A stretch of 27,388 nucleotides of DNA. Origin: a virus. The DNA lies in the IMG/VR virus record IMGVR_UViG_3300021425_000148, positions 1 to 27,388 of that record. One strand, 5' to 3'. Positions within the stretch are counted from its first letter, which is position 1. Each line of letters begins with the position of its first letter. Below, piece by piece: positions 16,495-27,388 of the stretch. A program made the translations under genes and the position numbers. The notes under the pieces were generated by a model. It was not told the DNA's origin and made no database searches. It worked only from the letters and a program-made list of their open reading frames with translations.

Positions 16495-18888
16495 TTATTT
16501 ACCTTTGTTAGCCGATGCCATATTAATTCTGTATATGTTGACATCATTTCTATCATCAGCAATGTTTTCTTGTAACTTCTGTCTCTGTTGAGCTAGTTCA
16601 TAAGCTTGTTGCAACTTAGCTTGATCAATCTGAAAATCCATTTGATCGTTCATTGTTTTTCTTTGAAGTTCAGCAGTATCATTCTCAAGTTCTTTCTTTC
16701 TAATTTCTACCAATGGATCTTCTGGAGTTGGTGGAGCTAGGGCAGGCATTATTTCATTCAAGATCTCGCCAACTTGTTGAGCGATTGCCGCTTCAACGGC
16801 TGCTGGATCAATCTGAGGAACTTGTTTACCTTCCATTTGAGCTTGTTCAACTGCTTTTTGAAAGAAAGTTGTAACCTGATCTCTTGCCATCATACCAACA
16901 TGCTCTTGTACATGAGCTTGTAACATAATATATCCTTGTGGATTTGCTTGAGATGTCTGACTTGATAACATTACCACATGTGCTCTGACGTGTGCCTCGT
17001 GATCTTGTTGTGGAAAGGCTTTCAAAGGCATACCTTTCATTGCATTTCCGTTTTCTGTTGCAGGATCCACGGGTTGTGGCTCTTGTGGCTTCGGTAAAAT
17101 AGCATCAATATTCTTAATATCGAGTGCATCATACATTCTTCTGTATGCTTCATGTACATTATGTATCTGTGGAGCCGCTTGAGCCAATTGTAATTGTGTT
17201 TGAGCGAGCGATAATCGCTGTGACATAGAGAAAATGTTCGGATCTGACACTGGAAGTATGTCAACACGTCCATCAAAGTCGGCCTGCATGGTCTCTGGTG
17301 GTACATTTCCAACAAAATACGGGTATGGAACTGGATTTTCACTAAAAATTTCGGCTAACATGCGAAATTCTTGCTTTTGAGCGTAATGTAAACGCTTATG
17401 TATGCTTGAAATGATCTTTGAACCTTGTTCAATCAAGGCAACAGTCGTTCCAACGGGTGCTTGAGAGTTAACATCGGCTATTTTTGCATCTGCAACCTGT
17501 GCAAAACGTCTACCAGAGTCAACAACTACCCCTAAAAGCTGTGCTAATGTGGCTGATGGCTCTTTATATGGCAATGGAATGATGGAATTTTTGAGATCTC
17601 CGCCTGGGACATCGATGTCACGAAACTCCCCAGGATTAAGAGGCTCATCATCATTACGAATACGAACACCACGAGCCTTAAACCCAGCTGGTAAATTAGA
17701 GAGCGTACCCGAATCAATTAATTGCCTCAATATAGAAGTTGCAGCACGAGAGAGACCTCCGATTGTGTGCAATAAACCGAAGCCGTAAAAACCAAATCCT
17801 GGTAAAAATTTGAAATGAGTGAAATATTGTCTCTTCCTTTTTAATGGGTCTTGCTCTCTAAAGTTTCTAACCACTGATAGCACTTTTCCAGAGCTTTGAT
17901 CAAGGGTAACAATATAAGGGAGCATAATCCCCGAAGGATCCCCCTGATTATCCATGTCTTCAAAACCTTCCAAGTCCAAGTCAACGTGGCATTCCAATAA
18001 GGTATAAGAGTCGTCAGAGTAATTTGGACGTAGTCCCAACAACTCATCAGTACGTTCTTGGATAGCTCCTTCGTCTTCACCATCACTTGTTTCAGATAGT
18101 TCAACATCTCTGTATACTCCTGCTACTTGTAGTTTACGAATATCATTATACGTCATTCTTACTACATGTGTAACCCTCTCTGCTGTTCTTAAATCACTAG
18201 CTGAGTATGGAACAACCATATCTTCTGCTGGTACAAACTTGGAAACGGCTCTCTGTTTTGTTTCATCAAAATAAACTTTTTTAAATGTAGATCCTGTTAA
18301 AGGCAAATAAAATAGCATTTGATCAGTGTCTTGATCATATTCTTCCATGACTTCAGTAACTTGATAGTTCATGAAATCTTCTACACGTTGAGCTTGTGCT
18401 TCCGTTTCTTGTGTAGGTGCTCCTAATATTTGTGTTTTTACAGGCCCACCACTTGGTAACATTTCTTTGTAAGCTTGTGCTTGAAACTGTGTAACTGCCT
18501 CTGATAATAGTGGATGAGTTACACCACTGGCACCTAAGAAGGGTTCACTTCGGTCTTCATAATTAATACCGAGTAGCCCTAATCCCTTCGCAATCGCCTC
18601 TTCCCAATCTTCCCTTGAGTCAACATCCTCACGGAATTTCGCTCTGAGATCAGATGATAGCTCTCCAAGAACGTCGTCATCAAGAACCTCTGCGAGATTG
18701 GCATCATGTCTATATTCTTCGACTTGAACTTCAACGGCTTCTTCATCTACAAGCTCTATGCCTTCTGGTAAATCATTAATAGTATCTGGTAACTCTATTT
18801 GTAAACTATCTTCTTCAGGCATCATCTGCCCACCTGCTCCCATGGATTTCTCCACTAGTCCTGCTATTTGTCTAGGTTCTATTGCCAT
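16495..18888 (-). CDS. Portal protein
   Basis: At 797 residues this is a large portal, the dodecameric ring through which DNA enters the head. After an acidic N-terminus it contains KFREDVDSREDWEEAIAKGL, GASGVTHPLLSEAVTQFQAQ, YKEMLPSGGPVKTQILG, and a typical portal core: LFYLPLTGSTFKKVYFDETK and PAEDMVVPYSASDLRTAERV. The wing/stem region has GFGFYGFGLLHTIGGLSRAA and TSILRQLIDSGTLSNLPAGF; APVGTTVALIEQGSKIISSI and HKRLHYAQKQEFRMLAEIF follow. The last 190 residues are Gln-rich helices, resembling the barrel extension of P22-type portals. The ATG follows AAAGGCAGG and overlaps the giant gene's stop as TAATG. Assignment rests on the P-L-T-G-x-x-F-K-K-V-Y-F-D and P-A-E-D-x-x-x-P pattern and on length. 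Confidence 0.85.
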   Translation of the reverse strand: MAIEPRQIAGLVEKSMGAGGQMMPEEDSLQIELPDTINDLPEGIELVDEEAVEVQVEEYRHDANLAEVLDDDVLGELSSDLRAKFREDVDSREDWEEAIAKGLGLLGINYEDRSEPFLGASGVTHPLLSEAVTQFQAQAYKEMLPSGGPVKTQILGAPTQETEAQAQRVEDFMNYQVTEVMEEYDQDTDQMLFYLPLTGSTFKKVYFDETKQRAVSKFVPAEDMVVPYSASDLRTAERVTHVVRMTYNDIRKLQVAGVYRDVELSETSDGEDEGAIQERTDELLGLRPNYSDDSYTLLECHVDLDLEGFEDMDNQGDPSGIMLPYIVTLDQSSGKVLSVVRNFREQDPLKRKRQYFTHFKFLPGFGFYGFGLLHTIGGLSRAATSILRQLIDSGTLSNLPAGFKARGVRIRNDDEPLNPGEFRDIDVPGGDLKNSIIPLPYKEPSATLAQLLGVVVDSGRRFAQVADAKIADVNSQAPVGTTVALIEQGSKIISSIHKRLHYAQKQEFRMLAEIFSENPVPYPYFVGNVPPETMQADFDGRVDILPVSDPNIFSMSQRLSLAQTQLQLAQAAPQIHNVHEAYRRMYDALDIKNIDAILPKPQEPQPVDPATENGNAMKGMPLKAFPQQDHEAHVRAHVVMLSSQTSQANPQGYIMLQAHVQEHVGMMARDQVTTFFQKAVEQAQMEGKQVPQIDPAAVEAAIAQQVGEILNEIMPALAPPTPEDPLVEIRKKELENDTAELQRKTMNDQMDFQIDQAKLQQAYELAQQRQKLQENIADDRNDVNIYRINMASANKGK

Positions 18889-21800
18889 TAGCCTGCCTTT
18901 CTAAGATCCACTGTACCACCTTTTGCTTTAAAAACAAATTTGCTTTTTGCTAGTTTCTCACCCGCTGAACCAGGATCGAGCCTTAATATATATTGAACCG
19001 GGTTAGGAAGTCTAGCTGTTCTGTTTCCATCTTTATCTACCATATTAAAGATTACATTCTCTTCTACTTGAACTTGAGGATTACCTGCTTCGTCTAATAA
19101 TGCATCCTGAAATTGCTTTTTAACTATGTTCGGAGCAACTTCATAACTTGTAAGACCTGCTTTTTTATGTTTTGCTAATTCTGCTAAATATCTAGCACTT
19201 CCATCATCTGCTGGTAATCTAGCTCTTCCTGACATGTTTTGTAAATCTGTTCTAGCAGGGAAAACAAAACCAACAACAGGCTCTCCATATATTTTTTCTA
19301 GATTTGGTATTTGATTTATTGCTCCTTTTATGATCGCTCTTGAAGCTTGTGACTGTGAAGAATGAGCAGAGTCTCTCATATAAGGTTCTGTATTGTTTAC
19401 ATGATTGTCTAATCTTTTATAAGCATTAAATAATTCTTGTGGCTCATATCCAAAGTCTCTGGCTCTTCTAGTTATTGCTAATTCAAATACTTGAGATCTT
19501 CTATCTTTTTCTTCTCTACTACCTAATCTTCGAGCTTCAGCAAACGATGCCTTATATTTATCTCTTAATTTTGACACGTTTTTTTCCAAAGCATCTACAC
19601 TTTCAAACAAAGGATTCATATTGACTGGGGTTGCTTTTACACTATTTACATAAGGCTCTTTTAGTAAATATTGAACAAAAGAATTGTATGAACTAGAATC
19701 TGAAAGCATAGACTGTTTATATTTTTCTATTAGAGCATCATCTGACATGTTTTCGGATGTCATAATATCTCTAACAGGTATAAAACCTATTTTAGAATTC
19801 ATGGAATCTAATTCTCTGCCTATATATTTTCTAATATCTAAAACAGCTTTAGGACCAAGTCTGTTATTAAAATCTTCTACGAAACCTTTTAAATCAACAC
19901 GGTTTTCTTGTAAGTTCTGTAATGGTGAGTTATTTGGTCGTGCAGCCATCATCTGTCCTTCTGGATTATAATTAGATATAATTAACTCATCTATATCTGT
20001 TTCTGGCATTACGTTTTCTGAGCTTTTTCTGCTCTTTATGTGGTTATCTAGAATATATTTAGCAACTTTTGCATTTAATACTCTATTTGCTTGGTTGTTT
20101 ATACTCTCATTCATAACCATGTCTATTGTTTTTCTAAATGCCTCTGGCTTACTTGTTCTGTTTTGCATTTCTTCAAAATAATTTTTAGGAAGAGATTGAA
20201 GTATGTCTCTTGGAATAATTCCTTTAGAAGAACCTAATCTTAAAATAGTCATACTCCTGTAGTTACCGAGTATTCCAGGCATATCATGTATTACATTAAA
20301 AACAGGGTTTACTTCCTCCGATTCTAATATACCAAACTTCTTTTCTCTTAAAAGAATTTCATTTGGTGTTTTTGCAGTCAACTTAAAATTTGTTTCAGGA
20401 TTTGTCACAGATATTGGGGCATAACTCAAAGGTGTTTTTAATTTACCTTGTTTTTGTAGCTCTATAAAAACATTTTCAACTATAGGACCTATTGGATTTA
20501 CGTCTGTATCTGTCATGTTGGTATCTCCTGCCAAAAGATCATAAAAGTTTTCGTTTGGATCTCTTCCAAAAAAAGGAGCTCTATCTTTTATTTTACTGTT
20601 AATTGCACCAGTAATCTCAAATCGATTGTTTACCATATCGTCTAAAGCCATTTCTGTTACATCAATGACTTGATTAGGAAATATAAGAAAATCTTCTTGT
20701 TCTCTTAGTTCATCTGTTAATTTATCAAGTTTTTCTTCTTCGTCGTTATAAACTTCAAGATCACTTTCATATTTTTGATAGGCTTCTTGTCTGTCTTTTC
20801 TAAGTTGAGTTAGAGAATCCTCCATAGGTATTTCTTGTTCAATTTTATCTAGAGTAATTACTTTTTGTTTTTCAGAAGCATCAAATATATTTCTAGATGA
20901 ACCAGGTCTATAATTACCTGCTCTAGGTATTTCATTACCATCAGCATCTCTTCCTAAGTCAGGATTAAAAGAATGAAGAGCGGCAGGTCTTCTGTTTTCT
21001 GATGGTCTAGGATCATACTCTTCTGGTGCAGCTTCACCAAAAAAATCTTCGTAACTTTGACTGTCTTCATCAAATATCTGTTGTTCTTGTGTCGGTGGAA
21101 CTTGACCTAACTTAGTCAGTTCCATCCTCTCTGTCCATGTCTTTTCTAATGTTTGATCGGCAGAATCTAAGTCATACATAGGAGTAGCAACATCTAAGTT
21201 TTCTTCTTTTATTCTTGATGAATCATCTTGAACTTCTTCAGCCATCATATATAGCTTACCGTCTTCTTCTCTTCTAACGACCATGCCTCTAAGATATGCG
21301 GCACCTTTTTTATGATAATCGTGGCCTGCCCCAATTTTAAGGTCAAACATTGTATCTCCAGATTCGTTCCCTGTTACTCCGAATGAATTTTTTTCTTTTA
21401 TAGCCTCAAGCGTACCACTTTTTTCTAAAGCACCTGATTTGATGTTTTGTTTATTATCATCGTAAGAAACAATAGCGACAGAATCGACTTCAAAATCTCT
21501 AGGATTAGAAACCCTCGCCCCACTTTCATCCACAAAGTTTTGCATAATTCTTTGTGTGGATTCTAGAGCAACACCTCCAACTACGTTTGAAAGATCTAAA
21601 GTGTTACCTGCTTGTGGATTGTTTGCATTAACTAATAGACCAGTTGGATTCTGGCCTGCAGCCTTACTTCTAATCTCTAATTTGACTTGCGGTCTTGTTT
21701 GATCAAAAACTTCGATAACTTCATCATAAGTTAATTCTTTATCTTTGTTACGAACAAGATATTCTTCAAGACCAGAGTTGTATGCTTCACCTCCTCTGTT

Positions 21801-23255
21801 ATGAGTCACTGAATCTGATGTACCTGATAGGTTGTCATTAAAAGATAGCACTTCTTCTCTTGAAGGTTTTGTAATATCAATTAGCTTATATAAGCTAGGA
21901 TCAAGCTTGGTATAATCACCTTTAGCTTCTTTCATTGCTTTACCAAATGCTTTACCGTCTACACCTTCGGCGGGGACTGCTTTCTTTTCTTTAACTTCAG
22001 TTACTTTGGTATCATAGTTACCCATGAAACCAACTAAACCTTGATTACCTTTTTCTGCTGCCCTTAAATCACCAATGATATCCTTACCAGTTTTTTTATA
22101 ATTTGCCCCAGATGCTTGTCTTTTTTCTTCTTCTTTTTTTAACTTAGTCAATATAATTCTAAGAGGAGAAACTGTTGGATTATCCTTAGTAGACTCTCCT
22201 GTCATATCTTGGTTAAAAAAGTTTTGTTTAGGATCTGCCTCTTCGTCTGTATTAGCTTGTAAGTTTCTTTCAGTTGCCTCGTTTATTTTTTGACTAGGCG
22301 AAGAACCTTGGTCCGATGGACCTTGATTCATGAGTATTTCAGACGTGGTTAATGGAACTTGTCTCAACTGTGCTCGATCTGGACTAAACAAAGATCCTGC
22401 AAAAGCCATCTCGGGAGAAAAACCACCAGTTCCTGGTCCATCAGAAAACATCTCTTGTATTTTGTTCACGGCTCCCGGACCCTGGCGGAGTGTCTCAATC
22501 CCCGTAGTCATACCACCACCCATGGTACCACCTAAAACAGTGCCCTCTAATATTTTATCGGCAACTTCTAAACCAGTATACTCACCACCAGTTAGAGCAG
22601 TCGATCCAACAGAAACACCTTCTTGTGCTCCTTCTGTTACACCTTCAAAAGCAACAGACTTACCTATTCTTTTGCCAATCTCTCTGGCTGCATCTATCTT
22701 ACCTTCTTTACCAAGTGCCCTAATTAACTGCTTACCCGTCATGGTTAGTAGTTCATCTTTTGGAATCACTTTACCAGCACCAAATCGATCAAGTAACCCT
22801 ATGATGGTTCCTGCACCAATGGCGACTGCATCATCATAATTACCCGTCTTTTGTTCCATCTCTTCGGCAACTTCACCAGTGCCCATGACTCCCGAACTGA
22901 CGAGTGTCGCTCCACCGATCAAGGCTGCCGCAGGCACACTAAACGGTGCAGTCAACGCTGCCGTTAAAGTTCCTACCAATGCAGGAGCACTTGTGGCTAA
23001 ATTTTCTTGAGTTTTTTCACCGAGCCACCCTAAAGCTTTGGATATCCCACCTTGGGTATAAGCTTCACGAAGCCCCATTGTGTATTCGGGTTGATAGTTC
23101 CCTTTACGAATATCTTCTTCTTGTTGCTCAACTACTTCTCTTCCATAGTTGTATAATGACTCAATACCAGTTCTTCTACCAATAACCTCAATACCTTTAC
23201 CAAAAAGTTTTTGAGCTTGGTCTATACTGAAATCAATAGCACTATCTCTAGCCAT
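18888..23255 (-). CDS. Giant internal/ejection protein (polyvalent-protein-like)
   Basis: This 1455-residue protein is the largest in the window. Its first 300 residues hold Gly/Ala-rich hydrophobic helices (NLATSAPALVGTLTAALTAP, VPAAALIGGATLVSSGVMGT, AVAIGAGTIIGLLDRFGAGK) and EGVTEGAQEGVSVGSTALTG, a pattern seen in large phage internal proteins thought to enter the host envelope at ejection. Residues about 480-720 (ELTYDEVIEVFDQTRPQVKL, then KGAAYLRGMVVRREEDGKLY and MMAEEVQDDSSRI) resemble the segment of large polyvalent-type phage proteins ending in an E-E-V/I-Q-S/D-D motif. The rest is charged and helical, ending VFKAKGGTVDLRKAG. No transglycosylase or protease motif was found. I start at the ATG at 23255, with AGGA upstream and a TGATG overlap. 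The place between terminase and portal is unusual. Confidence 0.6.
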   Translation of the reverse strand: MARDSAIDFSIDQAQKLFGKGIEVIGRRTGIESLYNYGREVVEQQEEDIRKGNYQPEYTMGLREAYTQGGISKALGWLGEKTQENLATSAPALVGTLTAALTAPFSVPAAALIGGATLVSSGVMGTGEVAEEMEQKTGNYDDAVAIGAGTIIGLLDRFGAGKVIPKDELLTMTGKQLIRALGKEGKIDAAREIGKRIGKSVAFEGVTEGAQEGVSVGSTALTGGEYTGLEVADKILEGTVLGGTMGGGMTTGIETLRQGPGAVNKIQEMFSDGPGTGGFSPEMAFAGSLFSPDRAQLRQVPLTTSEILMNQGPSDQGSSPSQKINEATERNLQANTDEEADPKQNFFNQDMTGESTKDNPTVSPLRIILTKLKKEEEKRQASGANYKKTGKDIIGDLRAAEKGNQGLVGFMGNYDTKVTEVKEKKAVPAEGVDGKAFGKAMKEAKGDYTKLDPSLYKLIDITKPSREEVLSFNDNLSGTSDSVTHNRGGEAYNSGLEEYLVRNKDKELTYDEVIEVFDQTRPQVKLEIRSKAAGQNPTGLLVNANNPQAGNTLDLSNVVGGVALESTQRIMQNFVDESGARVSNPRDFEVDSVAIVSYDDNKQNIKSGALEKSGTLEAIKEKNSFGVTGNESGDTMFDLKIGAGHDYHKKGAAYLRGMVVRREEDGKLYMMAEEVQDDSSRIKEENLDVATPMYDLDSADQTLEKTWTERMELTKLGQVPPTQEQQIFDEDSQSYEDFFGEAAPEEYDPRPSENRRPAALHSFNPDLGRDADGNEIPRAGNYRPGSSRNIFDASEKQKVITLDKIEQEIPMEDSLTQLRKDRQEAYQKYESDLEVYNDEEEKLDKLTDELREQEDFLIFPNQVIDVTEMALDDMVNNRFEITGAINSKIKDRAPFFGRDPNENFYDLLAGDTNMTDTDVNPIGPIVENVFIELQKQGKLKTPLSYAPISVTNPETNFKLTAKTPNEILLREKKFGILESEEVNPVFNVIHDMPGILGNYRSMTILRLGSSKGIIPRDILQSLPKNYFEEMQNRTSKPEAFRKTIDMVMNESINNQANRVLNAKVAKYILDNHIKSRKSSENVMPETDIDELIISNYNPEGQMMAARPNNSPLQNLQENRVDLKGFVEDFNNRLGPKAVLDIRKYIGRELDSMNSKIGFIPVRDIMTSENMSDDALIEKYKQSMLSDSSSYNSFVQYLLKEPYVNSVKATPVNMNPLFESVDALEKNVSKLRDKYKASFAEARRLGSREEKDRRSQVFELAITRRARDFGYEPQELFNAYKRLDNHVNNTEPYMRDSAHSSQSQASRAIIKGAINQIPNLEKIYGEPVVGFVFPARTDLQNMSGRARLPADDGSARYLAELAKHKKAGLTSYEVAPNIVKKQFQDALLDEAGNPQVQVEENVIFNMVDKDGNRTARLPNPVQYILRLDPGSAGEKLAKSKFVFKAKGGTVDLRKAG

Positions 23256-23497
23256 CAAGTAATCCTTGTTGTTCTTTTCTTTTCTGGAAGAAGTATATCC
23301 GAAAAACGATTAGTAACAGTATAACCGCCTGCTTTTCTTTTCTTACCTTTATCTTTATTGACACCTTCTTGAATCTGAAGAAGAAGATCTACACCAAAAG
23401 GATCTAATTGCTTTATCTGGTCTTTTGTTAGATATTTATCTAATTTATGTTTTCCAGTAAAGTCAACAACTTTACCTTTTGATTTTTTCTTACTCAT
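23255..23497 (-). CDS. Small basic protein of unknown function
   Basis: The 80-residue protein starts MSKKKSKGKVVDFTGKHKLD and contains KYLTKDQIKQLDPFGVDLLL, then a basic stretch KKRKAGGYTVTNRFSDILLP and a Lys/Arg/Thr end. The K-A-G-G-Y-T-V tail part is similar to glycine/basic tails elsewhere in this window. AAAGG lies 10 bases before the ATG, which overlaps the upstream stop as TAATG. It is located between terminase and the giant protein gene. I recognise no family; nucleic acid binding is possible from charge only. Confidence 0.5.
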   Translation of the reverse strand: MSKKKSKGKVVDFTGKHKLDKYLTKDQIKQLDPFGVDLLLQIQEGVNKDKGKKRKAGGYTVTNRFSDILLPEKKRTTRIT

Positions 23498-24195
23498 TAG
23501 AAAGTACCTTTAAATGTACCACCACGAGCTTTCATAACACCACCCATGTTCATCTTCTTGCCAATATACATCTTGCTTCGTATACCTTTGTTTAAACCAG
23601 GAGCTCCACTTTTTCTTACTTCTAACTGAGGAGCACCCGTATCAAAAGCACCAAATTTAGATGTTTGATTTCTTTTCTTTTGTTCTAGTGTTTTTTCAAA
23701 TTCAGCTGCTTCTTTTTTCTTTTTCTCTAGTCTTTCTAAATCTGTTTCTCTCTCTTTTTTTATAGATTTAGACGGAGTTTTTTCTTTTATCGTTCCTGTT
23801 TTTATTCCACTTACTTCTTTTTCTATTCTATCCGCTTCAGATTTTTTCATAGGAGGACCAGGTCTTGTTCTGTCTTCTTTCTCCACTAAATCTTGAATAC
23901 GATCTACTTCTTTCATTCTTTCTCTTGCTAAGAACTTTCTTTGATTTGTTGTTAAGTTTTTAGGTGCTTTGTTTTTAGCTTTCTGTTGTGCTTTTTTTAC
24001 AGCCATAACATTTGCTTGTATTCTTTTTCTTTCTGTTCCCCCATCACTTTTCTTTACTGGCTTTCGGATTGATCCAAACAAATTGTCCAGTTGTTTTATA
24101 GGGTCGCCACCAAATTTATCATCAAATGCTGATTTGATAGCTTTTCTTTTTGAAATTTTCTCTGCTTTTTTGCCTTTTGCTTTATCTTTACTCAT
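23497..24195 (-). CDS. Lys-rich coiled protein after terminase
   Basis: The 232-residue protein is rich in Lys, Glu and Arg, with long charged helices (MAVKKAQQKAKNKAPKNLTT, ERETDLERLEKKKKEAAEFE) and a Gly-containing tail KKMNMGGVMKARGGTFKGTF. The MGG-x-x-K-A-R-G-G-x-F-K-G end is found in many marine phage proteins and repeats the style of 14414-14905. It could be an internal head protein or a packaging accessory; a small terminase identity cannot be excluded but there is no recognisable DNA-binding domain. AGGG lies upstream and the start overlaps the terminase stop as TAATG. Confidence 0.5.
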   Translation of the reverse strand: MSKDKAKGKKAEKISKRKAIKSAFDDKFGGDPIKQLDNLFGSIRKPVKKSDGGTERKRIQANVMAVKKAQQKAKNKAPKNLTTNQRKFLARERMKEVDRIQDLVEKEDRTRPGPPMKKSEADRIEKEVSGIKTGTIKEKTPSKSIKKERETDLERLEKKKKEAAEFEKTLEQKKRNQTSKFGAFDTGAPQLEVRKSGAPGLNKGIRSKMYIGKKMNMGGVMKARGGTFKGTF

Positions 24196-25676
24196 TAGTA
24201 ATATTCCCTTGCTCTACGAGGATACCAATCTTCTGGTATTTCTTCTCCTTTTAAGTCTATAAATCCACCTTGCCTAAAACGCATAACTGCCATTGTCATA
24301 CTATCACAATAGTCATCATGATCGCCATTCGGAAAAGATGCAACCTCTTCTATCACATCATCGGCAAATTTTTCTCCTTCAGGATACCATACTTTGCCCG
24401 ATTCGAAAATAGGCGAAACAATATGCATCCTCATAGTTTTATCAACACCGCCACCACCTTTTCGTCTGCCCGGGCTAAATGTATTAACAGGCAAGTTCAA
24501 TAGTCGTAGTTCATCTGCCAATGGTTGACCACTTGCTTTTGCCTCAATCAACATCAAGTCTGGTTGCCAATATTCATTTTCTTCTATCGCTATCTGCTTT
24601 AACTCTGGGAAACTCCATCGACCCTTCTTCGCATCCAACATTATCAAATGTTGTTCACCATTCGGTTTCGGTTCAAACACACCCCACGTTGTAATAGCAC
24701 TATAGTCTGCCGTCTCTTTTTTAGAATATGCCGTATCATAACTCTGAACTATGTAATCCAAATTAGGAACATCCTCATGCTCCCAAGGTTGCCACCACTC
24801 TCTCTTGATCATCGCAACAGCTTCCGATGTCGGATTTTGTTGCCACTGTGCATTCCATTTGACCGGGGACAGTGAAGCCTTAACCTTTAATAGTTCTTCT
24901 ACTTGCCAAAATTCAGGCCACAAAGGTTTATCATTCGGAAGTATCGCTGGAAATTCTATAACTTCCCATTGATCCGACATACTATCCATCGCCATATTCT
25001 GAATTAATCGCCCCGTCAGATCTTTCTTAGACCATCTGGTTTGCACAATGATGATGGTTCCCCCCGGTTGTAATCTCTGTCTCGGTCCTGATGTGTACCA
25101 CTCGTATGTATTATCATAAGCAACCGTGGACAGTGCATCTTGTTCCGAATGTGGATCGTCAATGATCAACAAATCAGCACCACGACCAGTCATTGCAGCA
25201 CCCACCCCCGCTGCAAAGTATTCCCCGCCTTGGCTAGTCTCCCAACGACCTGCCGCTTGGCTATCCTGTTTCAAGTCCGTCTTGGGAAAGATCTCTGCAT
25301 ATATGGGATCGGCAATGAGATCACGGACTTTCCTACCAAATCTTACAGCAAGTTCCGTGTTCATGGTAGCCTGTATGATTTTTAATTTTGGATTACGGCC
25401 CAAGAACCACGAAGGCATTAAATATGAGGCTAATTCTGACTTCGAGTGTCTAGGTGGCATGTTGATTATCAAACGCTTCAAGTTACCCGATGCAATGTCC
25501 TCGAGCTTTTCTGCAATGATACGATGATGTCTACCCTCTATAAATCCCTCATATACATGTTTAGCATAGGCAAGAAATTTAGTTTGGGCTAATTCTCTGG
25601 TATCAAGTCGTCGTTTCTGTTCTTCAAGTAACAGAACTTCTTGTAACACTTCTTTAGGTAGTACATCTAGATTCAT
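24195..25676 (-). CDS. terL: Large terminase subunit (ATPase-nuclease)
   Basis: This 493-residue motor drives DNA into the procapsid and cuts the concatemer. Numbered from the ATG at 25676, the ATPase domain has NMPPRHSKSELASYLMPSWF (deviant Walker A, about 73-80), LLIIDDPHSEQD (Walker B, about 169-180) and IIIVQTRWSKKDLTGRL (coupling motif, about 208-224). The RNase H-like nuclease has VQSYDTAYSKKETADYSA (Asp314), LMLIEAKASGQPLADEL (Glu378) and HDDYCDSM (Asp455/Asp458). All expected motifs are intact. I prefer 25676 because relatives in marine phages begin MNL-x-x-L-P-K-x-V-L-x-E; a frame extends to an ATG at 25715, and neither has a clear Shine-Dalgarno sequence. It is the first gene of the leftward operon. 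Confidence 0.93.
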   Translation of the reverse strand: MNLDVLPKEVLQEVLLLEEQKRRLDTRELAQTKFLAYAKHVYEGFIEGRHHRIIAEKLEDIASGNLKRLIINMPPRHSKSELASYLMPSWFLGRNPKLKIIQATMNTELAVRFGRKVRDLIADPIYAEIFPKTDLKQDSQAAGRWETSQGGEYFAAGVGAAMTGRGADLLIIDDPHSEQDALSTVAYDNTYEWYTSGPRQRLQPGGTIIIVQTRWSKKDLTGRLIQNMAMDSMSDQWEVIEFPAILPNDKPLWPEFWQVEELLKVKASLSPVKWNAQWQQNPTSEAVAMIKREWWQPWEHEDVPNLDYIVQSYDTAYSKKETADYSAITTWGVFEPKPNGEQHLIMLDAKKGRWSFPELKQIAIEENEYWQPDLMLIEAKASGQPLADELRLLNLPVNTFSPGRRKGGGGVDKTMRMHIVSPIFESGKVWYPEGEKFADDVIEEVASFPNGDHDDYCDSMTMAVMRFRQGGFIDLKGEEIPEDWYPRRAREYY

Positions 25677-25816
25677 GCCCAAACAATAATATATTTGAAT
25701 GAAATTATCAATCATTGTAATTATTAGTCTGTAAGTAACCCTCGCCCCGTGTTTTAGGGGGGTGGCCCCTCTTGCTATAGTAAATTTATTTTCGGTTCTG
25801 TTGGAGTAACCCCTTT

Positions 25817-25860
25817 AAAACGAAAGACTCGCAAGCTCGCTTTCGTTTTGTCAAATTTTT
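25817..25860 (+). repeat. Conserved-loop hairpin repeat, copy 1
   Basis: The 44-base element has a perfect 10-base stem (AAAACGAAAG at 25817-25826 with CTTTCGTTTT at 25840-25849), a 13-base loop containing CTCGCAAGCTC, and a TCAAATTTTT tail. It is identical to copy 2 at 26762-26805, and similarity continues about 15 bases further (GAGGGGTGCAATGCAT against TAGAGTCGCAATCAT). It may act as a bidirectional terminator, an insulator or a protein-binding hairpin. Confidence 0.9.
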
Positions 25861-25870
25861 GAGGGGTGCA

Positions 25871-25897
25871 ATGCATAGAGTGCATATCGGTCATGCA
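25871..25897 (+). promoter_or_regulatory. Possible operator with TGCAT half-sites
   Basis: ATGCA (25871-25875) and TGCAT (25881-25885) form an inverted pair with a 5-base spacer, and a third half-site ATGCA lies at 25893-25897. They stand 20 bases before the -35 box of the rightward promoter. A regulator site is suggested by spacing only. Confidence 0.3.
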
Positions 25898-25916
25898 ACA
25901 ATGTGTTACTTTCTTG

Positions 25917-25945
25917 TTTACTTATGGGACAAACTGGGATACAAT
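25917..25945 (+). promoter_or_regulatory. Rightward sigma-70-like promoter
   Basis: TTTACT (25917-25922) and TACAAT (25940-25945) are 17 bases apart, giving a start near 25952 and a leader of about 34 bases before the ATG at 25986. The spacing and -10 are good. It is placed correctly for the three-gene rightward unit. Confidence 0.55.
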
Positions 25946-25951
25946 CTTTTT

Positions 25952-25965
25952 AGGGAATAGTCCCT
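25952..25965 (+). repeat. Short inverted repeat at the predicted transcript start
   Basis: AGGGA and TCCCT flank a 4-base ATAG. It falls on the predicted +1 to +14 of the rightward promoter, so it could be an operator or a 5'-end mRNA hairpin protecting the message. It is short enough to occur by chance. Confidence 0.35.
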
Positions 25966-25985
25966 TAACAACAAGGAGGACAATT

Positions 25986-26246
25986 ATGTCAAACATTCAA
26001 GATGCAATTGAACAAGAAATTGCAGATCAAATCGAATCTCGAATTGATGATGCGATTTATGAGAACAATGATGTTCAACAATTAAAGTCAGATGTCGAGG
26101 ATCTAGAATCTAGATTAGATGTTGACGAAATAGTTGAAAAGGTATTGTTTCAACTAGCAGTTAAACAAGTTAAACAACTAGAAGGCGAGTTTGTTATGGT
26201 TAAGAAAGCTTACCTTAAACAATTAGAAGAAAAGGAGGGCGAATAA
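25986..26246 (+). CDS. Acidic helical small protein
   Basis: The 86-residue protein begins MSNIQDAIEQEIADQIESRI and is almost entirely helical and acidic, with heptad-like spacing (DVQQLKSDVEDLESRLDVDE, IVEKVLFQLAVKQVKQLEGE) that suggests a coiled coil. I start at the ATG at 25986, preceded at 5 bases by AAGGAGGA; upstream codons in the same frame belong to non-coding leader. Its stop overlaps the next start as TAATG. I do not recognise a family. It may pair with the next, also helical, small protein. Confidence 0.65.
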   Translation: MSNIQDAIEQEIADQIESRIDDAIYENNDVQQLKSDVEDLESRLDVDEIVEKVLFQLAVKQVKQLEGEFVMVKKAYLKQLEEKEGE

Positions 26247-26413
26247 TGAATGTAGAAGAAATTACATTAATTATGGATTCAACTAAAATCCTAAAAGATA
26301 TGTGTTCAAGTAATCATGCACATACTAAATCATTAAACATCGAACTTCAAAAGCTTATAAAAGTTATTATGGCTATCGAAGAAAGAGTTAGCAAATTGGA
26401 GGGCAAACAATGA
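26246..26413 (+). CDS. 55-residue helical small protein
   Basis: A 55-codon frame begins at the ATG at 26246, whose A is the last base of the preceding TAA. AAGGAGGGC lies upstream. The product starts MNVEEITLIMDSTKILKDMC and ends IKVIMAIEERVSKLEGKQ; it is predicted helical with a hydrophobic face. Its TGA overlaps the following ATG as ATGA, so the three genes of this unit are translationally chained. No family recognised; function unknown. Confidence 0.65.
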   Translation: MNVEEITLIMDSTKILKDMCSSNHAHTKSLNIELQKLIKVIMAIEERVSKLEGKQ

Positions 26414-26673
26414 AATGTGATATTTGCACGAGTGATATAGACATTCAAGCAAATGGATTTGAGGGAGGGCATAATGCCTTCCCTATTTCCAATGGTCGAT
26501 GTTGTACTAAATGTAATGATACTGAAGTTATCCCGATGAGAATCGCAATCATAGCCTCGGGTCGAGCAATGCCAACAAGACCGATCAAAGATATTCTAAA
26601 AGATCATCGCAAGGCAAGAGCTTTAGCTAAAGTATCTTTGAAGCACATCGCAAAAAAAGCCAATGAAAAATAA
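26410..26673 (+). CDS. Small zinc-ribbon-like protein
   Basis: The 87-residue protein has C3-x-x-C6 and C32-x-x-C35 pairs, with an additional C31: MKCDICTSDIDIQANGFEGG, HNAFPISNGRCCTKCNDTEV and IPMRIA. The GGHNAxPIxxGRCCxxCNxxxVIP pattern is seen in small proteins of many marine phages and implies a single zinc knuckle; function unknown. The C-terminal 45 residues are basic and helical (KDILKDHRKARALAKVSLKH), so nucleic acid or ribosome contact is possible. The ATG overlaps the previous TGA, and a terminator follows the stop. Confidence 0.7.
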   Translation: MKCDICTSDIDIQANGFEGGHNAFPISNGRCCTKCNDTEVIPMRIAIIASGRAMPTRPIKDILKDHRKARALAKVSLKHIAKKANEK

Positions 26674-26687
26674 TCAAGTTTCCTTGG

Positions 26688-26724
26688 GAAAAAGGGAGGG
26701 CTTCGGCTTTCCCTTTTTTTTATT
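26688..26724 (+). terminator. Rho-independent terminator with UUCG tetraloop
   Basis: AAAGGGAGGGC (26691-26701) pairs with GCTTTCCCTTT (26706-26716) around TTCG, giving 11 pairs including two G-T wobbles, and is followed by a T-run. It lies 15-20 bases after the zinc-ribbon gene and ends the three-gene unit. Confidence 0.9.
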
Positions 26725-26761
26725 TTGTTTCCCGTCCGTTGGGTCTCGGGTCGCAAGTTTG

Positions 26762-26805
26762 AAAACGAAAGACTCGCAAGCTCGCTTTCGTTTTGTCAAA
26801 TTTTT
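26762..26805 (+). repeat. Conserved-loop hairpin repeat, copy 2
   Basis: This 44-base sequence is identical to 25817-25860: a 10-base stem (26762-26771 with 26785-26794), a 13-base loop with CTCGCAAGCTC, and TCAAATTTTT. It lies between a terminator and the next rightward promoter. A functional terminator already precedes it, so its purpose is probably something other than ending that transcript. Confidence 0.9.
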
Positions 26806-26872
26806 TAGAGTCGCAATCATAAAACTTGATTCGGTGTATCAGAAAATACAATTCGCAAACCAGGATTTTTTA

Positions 26873-26905
26873 TTGACTTCTTGCAGTCTTAGATTATCCT
26901 ATAAT
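26873..26905 (+). promoter_or_regulatory. Candidate promoter for the last rightward gene
   Basis: A perfect TATAAT (26900-26905) lies 23 bases before the ATG at 26929. TTGACT (26873-26878) is the best -35 match but the 21-base spacer is too long for standard sigma-70, so the true -35 may be weak or an activator may be needed. Confidence 0.4.
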
Positions 26906-26928
26906 TAACAATAAAAGGAGGACTAACA

Positions 26929-27297
26929 ATGTTACAAGAAACAATGACCAAGAAGCAAAAGAAACGGGCAGATTACATTTATGCAGAAGATAGACTAGAC
27001 AATTTATTAAATAGTCATCAAGAAATATTTTGTATTATTCGCCACGTTTCAAAAAGTGGAATGTGCCGACACATCAGTTTTTTTATTATCGATAACCAAA
27101 GCAATCAACCTTTGTTTTTGGATAATTTAATATCGGATTATTTGGACTATCGACCAAACAAAACTTATACGGGTTTGGTTGTTAATGGGTGTGGAATGGA
27201 TATGGCTTTCTCGGTCGTCCATCATCTACAAGAACAAATGAAACATTCCAAAAACACAACCTTTATAAATTATGATTTCCGTCATAGAATTATCTAG
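26929..27297 (+). CDS. Conserved RHVS-x-SGM / GCGMDM phage protein
   Basis: The 122-residue protein has two signature segments: IIRHVSKSGMCRHISFFII (about 37-55) and VVNGCGMDMAFSVVHHL (about 84-100). The R-H-V-S-x-S-G-M-x-R-x-I and G-C-G-M-D-M-x-F-x-V-V-x-x-L motifs occur together in small proteins from many unrelated phages, as I recall, without a known function. Conserved His, Cys and Asp would be consistent with an enzyme or metal site, but this is unproven. The gene has AAAGGAGGA 6 bases before its ATG, stands alone between a promoter-like sequence and a terminator, and is therefore independently expressed. Confidence 0.65.
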   Translation: MLQETMTKKQKKRADYIYAEDRLDNLLNSHQEIFCIIRHVSKSGMCRHISFFIIDNQSNQPLFLDNLISDYLDYRPNKTYTGLVVNGCGMDMAFSVVHHLQEQMKHSKNTTFINYDFRHRII

Positions 27298-27301
27298 CAT
27301 C

Positions 27302-27326
27302 GGGAGGCTTTCGCCTCCCTTTTTTA
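27302..27326 (+). terminator. Rho-independent terminator
   Basis: A perfect 7-base stem GGGAGGC/GCCTCCC (27302-27308 with 27313-27319), loop TTTC, followed by a run of seven Ts interrupted only later. It lies 5 bases after the stop of the preceding gene. Confidence 0.9.
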
Positions 27327-27354
27327 TTTTATTTTCCCGAAGCCTCACATACTT

Positions 27355-27388
27355 AAAACGCAAAGCTCGCAAGCTCTCTTTGCGTTGT
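27355..27388 (+). repeat. Conserved-loop hairpin repeat, copy 3 (cut by window edge)
   Basis: The arms AACGCAAAG (27357-27365) and CTTTGCGTT (27378-27386) pair perfectly and enclose a 12-base loop CTCGCAAGCTCT. Relative to copies 1 and 2 both arms carry an additional complementary base (C on one side, G on the other), while the loop core CTCGCAAGCTC is unchanged. The right-hand tail is outside the window. Confidence 0.85.

Follow-up and report, generated by a model that had tools for sequence, protein, structure and literature searches.

The short hairpins beside terL in this phage DNA may well be structured DNA borders of exchangeable early-gene cassettes, set between terL and a convergent nuclease gene, a reading that we hold with slightly better than even confidence from comparisons of sequences. 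The DNA analysed (hereafter the window) is an IMG/VR phage fragment of 27,388 nucleotides (27.4 kb) in which terL, an SU10-type portal and a major head protein are recognisable. We favour borders in DNA because the hairpins combine a fixed loop with compensating stems and a scarcity of G-U pairs, because they are confined to one array and stand there in fence-post order, and because whole units are gained and lost with breakpoints that usually fall at hairpins. In such an arrangement, the hairpins would be inverted repeats with a fixed loop that can fold into a cruciform or a single-strand hairpin, and each cassette would consist of a hairpin, one or more genes and a terminator. This reading was absent from the preliminary description of the window, yet comparisons of units between relatives favour it. 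Phage genomes are mosaics, and physical marks of the joints between small modules are known in few groups; if a phage protein does read these hairpins, they would provide a natural handle on early-gene trading among phages.

Judged by its sequence, the window phage is a distant relative of the pelagiphages HTVC023P and HTVC027P and represents an uncultured, water-borne family. The nearest cultured phages to its TerL protein were the Pelagibacter phages HTVC027P and HTVC023P, 023Pt_psg01 and DSL-LC04, at 54-60% identity. Promoter-like sites (sigma70-like) numbered 10, compared with 5.2 +/- 2.5 expected, and PHROG and Pfam matches were absent for the two unit 1 ORFs tested. Elsewhere in the window, a 1456-aa ORF (18888-23258) lies between terL and the portal gene, measures 1094 to 1561 aa in relatives and is absent from relative L029, while positions 601-1872 encode a predicted protein with a repetitive, low-complexity coding sequence (repeat family D1).

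Hairpin copies 1 and 2 are identical across 44 nt (25817-25860 and 26762-26805), and copy 3 carries the paired stem change that the preliminary description had reported while retaining the loop core CTCGCAAGCTC (Table 1). When at most one mismatch was allowed, this core occurred 3 times in the window compared with 0.22 expected, a count reached in 0 of 100 shuffles. Terminators, which had been described at two of the sites, were recovered ahead of copies 2 and 3. The earlier statement that the loop is invariant does not hold strictly, since CTCGCAAACTC, CTCGCAATGCTC, CTCGCAAGCCTC and larger branched loops also exist. Sequence conservation does not stop at the stem but goes on in its 3' flank (GTCAAATTTTTT..TCGCAA; GTCAAATTTTTTAG-GTCGCAA). 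Copy 1 sits immediately upstream of terL, in the gap between divergent genes, and a homologous slot is present in relatives. The window stops short of the nuclease gene, and the near-identical loci L004, L006 and L011 run on past the position of copy 3 to a fourth hairpin and the nuclease gene. A strip upstream of terL, window 25733-25815 (GTAACCC..TTTTAGGGGGGTGGCCCC..AGTAACCCC), is shared by the relatives read, those that lack an array among them, and is a candidate packaging site.

Table 1. Coordinates of terL, cassette units, terminators and hairpin elements at the right end of the window.
Feature	Position	Strand	Remarks
terL	24195..25715	(-)	conserved left border of the cassette array
Hairpin copy 1	25817..25849	(+)	arms 25817-25826 / 25840-25849; loop 25827-25839 (ACTCGCAAGCTCG)
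3' flank of copy 1	25850..25871	(+)	GTCAAATTTTT tract and TGCAA
Unit 1: three small ORFs	25986..26673	(+)	25986-26246, 86 aa; 26246-26413, 55 aa; 26410-26673, 87 aa
Intrinsic terminator, end of unit 1	26685..26722	(+)	
TCGCAAG upstream of copy 2	26751..26757	(+)	YGCAR motif recurs in the elements
Hairpin copy 2	26762..26794	(+)	same sequence as copy 1
3' flank of copy 2	26795..26816	(+)	GTCAAATTTTTTAGAGTCGCAA
Unit 2: single ORF, 122 aa	26929..27297	(+)	PHROG 12365, unknown function
Intrinsic terminator, end of unit 2	27302..27319	(+)	T run after
Hairpin copy 3	27355..27388	(+)	arms 27357-27365 / 27378-27386; loop CTCGCAAGCTCT; 3' side cut by contig end

The hairpin family was found in at least 60 IMG/VR contigs, every one of them a relative of the window phage. 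A pattern scan yielded nine further IMG/VR contigs, and 80 TerL relatives were read at the slot upstream of terL and for all arms around TCGCA. Three forms were met in this slot: short loops, with CTCGCAAGCTC or one of its variants; branched loops of 20-21 nt (TCGCARnGCGACCACTYCGTT); and long loops whose inner hairpin varies. In some relatives the slot is occupied by other palindromes or has no palindrome at all. Scanning for the 20-21 nt loop alone, with the stem left out of the pattern, returned 54 contigs, and perfect 9-15 bp arms flanked 58 of the 65 distinct large-loop matches. The arms were interrupted in two matches (L065, L159), displaced by a duplicated inner repeat in two (L007, L013) and absent from the three in unrelated phages (L130, L143, L158), which serve as a negative control. 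In 81 of 168 copies, the YGCAR of the loop is preceded at exactly 10 nt by a second YGCAR.

Outside these relatives, the short-loop pattern gave just scattered sites in 84,980 bacterial and archaeal genomes, plus an unrelated repeat, CCCCCAAAAGCTCGCAAGCTCACTTTCGGGGAACCCC, that is present in many copies in the Clostridia MAG RGIG1980 (L089-L110). We found no cultured phage with these hairpins: HTVC027P, HTVC023P, DSL-LC04 and 023Pt_psg01 have none of the same type, and the region has other repeats. In HTVC027P (L111), for example, the terL-terS region carries GCTTGNN heptad arrays at 16499-17746. When the intergenic DNA was compared with cultured phages, no real match emerged: each record covered just 2-3% of the query, for the most part at terminators. 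Hairpins, stem-loops and intergenic repeats go unmentioned in the paper on the HTVC023P group. Apart from a tRNA in L073, Rfam gave no match at the gathering threshold, and weak E-values gave scattered sub-threshold matches.

Among 43 distinct large-loop copies, compensatory changes were observed at 10 of 10 stem pairs, with 126 double changes versus 2 single ones. The covariation score of these copies was 0.503, compared to 0.166 when shuffled and at most 0.112 when the partners were slid, and invariant columns numbered 0 in the stem and 15 of 21 in the loop. An inner pair also covaries (C-G to T-A), whereas the other inner hairpin has four pairs, all of them invariant. The preliminary description had looked to further copies whose stems covary around a constant loop, and these were indeed found: 29 hairpins in the first loci, then 80 distinct short- and large-form hairpins with one internal mismatch in all, and the formal pair count. 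Its proposal that selection acts on a folded structure together with the loop sequence thus gained strong support from the flanked loop-only matches, the near-perfect stems and the pair counts. A double-stranded DNA operator with two half sites was ruled out, since the arms vary inside one genome while the loop stays constant.

In the records of two relatives, each of about 61 kb, the elements were confined to the interval beside terL, and the hairpins usually number 3-6 copies across about 2 kb. The layout runs from terL through a hairpin, small genes, a terminator, a hairpin, a gene, a terminator and one or two hairpins to the nuclease, and these unit layouts in relatives agree with the earlier suggestion that the hairpins mark transcription-unit borders. 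The far end of the interval is formed by a convergent gene of ~140 codons, whose stop codon lies in the last hairpin or at most ~30 nt from it in the ten cases read. By simple-script ORF calls, in which small genes could be missed, a plus-strand ORF followed the last hairpin in 0 of the 55 arrays that have at least two hairpins, which favours borders over a role as promoter or leader. In relatives L042-L050, terL and the nuclease gene are almost adjacent, and array and element are both absent.

Comparisons of close relatives, all of them metagenomic contigs, placed breakpoints in or beside hairpins in most cases, four of which were clean. Between L029 and L030, one complete unit (hairpin, gene and terminator) differs, with both borders at ATCGCAAACTTCTTAAAACAAAAG, the element's 5' flank and arm; in another unit of this pair, the genes have been exchanged for others although the hairpin DNA that flanks them is almost the same. 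Whole-unit differences with both breakpoints within hairpin arms were also observed for L136/L133, L136/L115 and L160/L007. Two other pairs were dropped as clean hairpin-border cases: in L139/L075 the unit borders coincide with terminators, and the breakpoints of L155/L142 lie in the tract just after the hairpin. L159 combines the 5' arm of one copy with the 3' arm of a neighbouring copy, both of which are found in L150; this is consistent with either a deletion between identical loops or a chimeric assembly.

The protein encoded at the end of the array has PD-(D/E)XK residues, with invariant E25, D34, E47-x-K49 and Q63 and with P33 in at least 90%. Nine of 10 members matched the PHROG annotation 'Holliday junction resolvase' (PHROG 5702, E 2e-4). 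Curated family cut-offs were not reached (Pfam VRR_NUC E 0.055, Hjc E 0.095), and the best PDB sequence matches, the nuclease 4qbo and the Hjc-like 2eo0, had E above 0.1. An AlphaFold model of moderate confidence (mean pLDDT 69) has an alpha-beta3-alpha-beta fold, and its best Foldseek matches were archaeal Hjc resolvases (E 5e-4); no match to the nuclease was obtained in cultured phages. Stand-alone VRR-Nuc proteins cut four-way junctions (PMC4103454), and since a cruciform contains a four-way junction, the nuclease gene is a natural candidate to act on the elements. Nevertheless, the gene is also present in the hairpin-less relatives L042-L050, so the two are not strictly coupled.

How units might be exchanged at such borders can be pictured in more than one way. 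The hairpin would form in DNA during infection and a phage protein would recognise its loop and fold; less certainly, the Holliday-junction-resolvase-like nuclease might nick or resolve the extruded junctions and in this way promote exchange. Alternatively, that the elements are identical in sequence would by itself be enough for ordinary homologous recombination to shuffle the units. Since the arms differ among copies in one genome, homologous exchange should drop, and exchange may arise as a side effect of some other function. A dedicated cassette-exchange system, in which loop-recognised cruciform borders would be cut or resolved by the resolvase-like enzyme at the array end, seems unlikely to us; it would be integron-like without the integrase. 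Integron attC sites are structured DNA sites between exchangeable gene cassettes. The present arrays differ in that no integrase was seen beside them and in that their hairpins conserve the loop and leave the stem free to vary.

Whether the structure is formed in DNA or in RNA bears directly on the other roles that can be proposed. G-U pairs accounted for 2 of 396 pairs in the element stems, both in the chimeric L159 copy, compared with 46 of 743 pairs (6%), in 33 of 75 stems, for the intrinsic terminators of the same contigs. The minus strand, which is the template of the rightward genes, folded better in 32 of 43 large loops and 17 of 17 short loops with RNA parameters, and in 21 of 43 large loops (20 equal) and 14 of 17 short loops with DNA parameters; strand differences in thermodynamics were small. 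Read on the minus strand, the short loop is CGAG-CTTG-CGAG, in which two sheared G-A pairs can form, and the sequence AC(GRA)GT inside the large loop is a GNA-type triloop. A constraint on the elements at the DNA level has good support. Wobble-free, perfect stems could also come from template-switch correction of quasi-palindromes, and since such correction could keep stems perfect, the G-U scarcity points to DNA but alone shows no selected function.

These observations weigh on an RNA-level element, either a small RNA or a transcribed, protein-bound hairpin that would serve boxB-like antitermination, mRNA processing or mRNA stability, which we regard as quite unlikely. Compensating stem changes around a constant loop are a classic sign of structured RNA, copy 1 could sit in the leader of the rightward unit, and a T tract follows 78 of 176 copies at a median of 8 nt past the stem. 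However, RNA function is disfavoured because G-U pairs are nearly absent and because folding is mostly better on the minus strand than on the one transcribed into the units; in addition, copies 2 and 3 follow terminators and leave little space for a promoter, the last hairpins have no plus-strand gene after them, and Rfam matches at the gathering threshold are lacking. Among the second roles raised in the preliminary description, the G-U scarcity and minus-strand folding thus speak against a small RNA or a protein-binding hairpin at the RNA level, and an insulator comes closest. Such a transcriptional insulator, a second terminator or roadblock that would stop read-through between units in either direction, is nonetheless similarly improbable. 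A location after one unit's terminator and ahead of the next unit would suit it, as would the A-rich 5' arm and T-rich 3' arm of several copies, but 98 of 176 copies lack a T tract within 70 nt, several lack a T run at the stem (e.g. CTTTTCGTCGTGCCTCATT), and a conserved loop is not needed for termination. The elements also lack the U tract directly after the stem that characterises an intrinsic terminator.

A promoter of the N4 type, in which a template-strand DNA hairpin would be read by a phage or virion RNA polymerase for the small early genes, appears very unlikely even though it accommodates several properties of the elements. The stems of N4 promoter hairpins are shorter than the 9-15 bp stems observed here. 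The likeness lies in a template-strand structure in several copies ahead of small early genes, in a single orientation and near terL, and in the inner mini-hairpin of the large form, A-C(GRA)G-T on the template strand, which is of the central-purine triloop type that N4 vRNAP needs (PMC4496689). Yet extra hairpins at the end of arrays have no plus-strand gene downstream, the inner loop is closed by T-A in 13 of 43 copies and by C-G in 30 of 43 where N4 needs C-G, and the short forms, those of the window included, lack a GNA-type triloop. Moreover, no polymerase was found among ten large ORFs tested, and PF00940 (T7-type RNA polymerase) was unmatched in ten relatives, although the control for this search was uninformative. 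A replication or packaging element (a primer hairpin, an origin or part of a packaging site) is highly improbable. Its confinement to the interval adjoining terL and the iteron-like recurrence of YGCAR about one helical turn upstream of the loop would be compatible with such a role, but the elements are multiple and spread over the array and are missing from L042-L050, which keep the strip beside terL, so they are essential for neither replication nor packaging.

Returning to borders of exchangeable cassettes, several known phage repeats invite comparison. PeSLs are said to be promoter-early stem-loops of T4-type phages, reportedly described by Arbiol in 2010 and Comeau in 2014. They reportedly form repeated intergenic modules of stem-loop and promoter that border small nonessential genes, with the stem-loop itself terminating transcription. 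PeSLs mediate gene shuffling in T4-like phages (PMC4503421), and our unit comparisons likewise place a stem-loop between exchangeable small genes. In contrast with PeSLs, where the stem-loop is the terminator, the units here appear to have a separate intrinsic terminator, consistent with the many elements that lack a T tract. The elements further differ in their constant loop, covarying G-U-poor stems and better-folded template strand, and they occur in another phage group, whose arrays end at a resolvase-like gene. By these properties, the elements are comparable to PeSLs as putative functional analogues, not as members. In the ESAS/SAS repeats of cluster K mycobacteriophages, the inverted repeat itself is conserved and is tied to the translation start (PMC3203893). 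Those repeats resemble the present ones in occurring in many copies, mostly in one orientation, before a subset of small genes, and in being imperfect inverted repeats with a variable spacer, but here the arm sequence is free and the loop is fixed.

Other palindromes were observed in and around these arrays. An operator-like palindrome of the form AAATGTCACA-N3-TGTGACATTT lies just 3' of several hairpins (L008, L009, L026 and L031), and other subclades (L079-L086 and L015) carry different long palindromes in the same interval, such as TTAACATGTTAA-AGGCCTGGATAG-TTAACATGTTAA.
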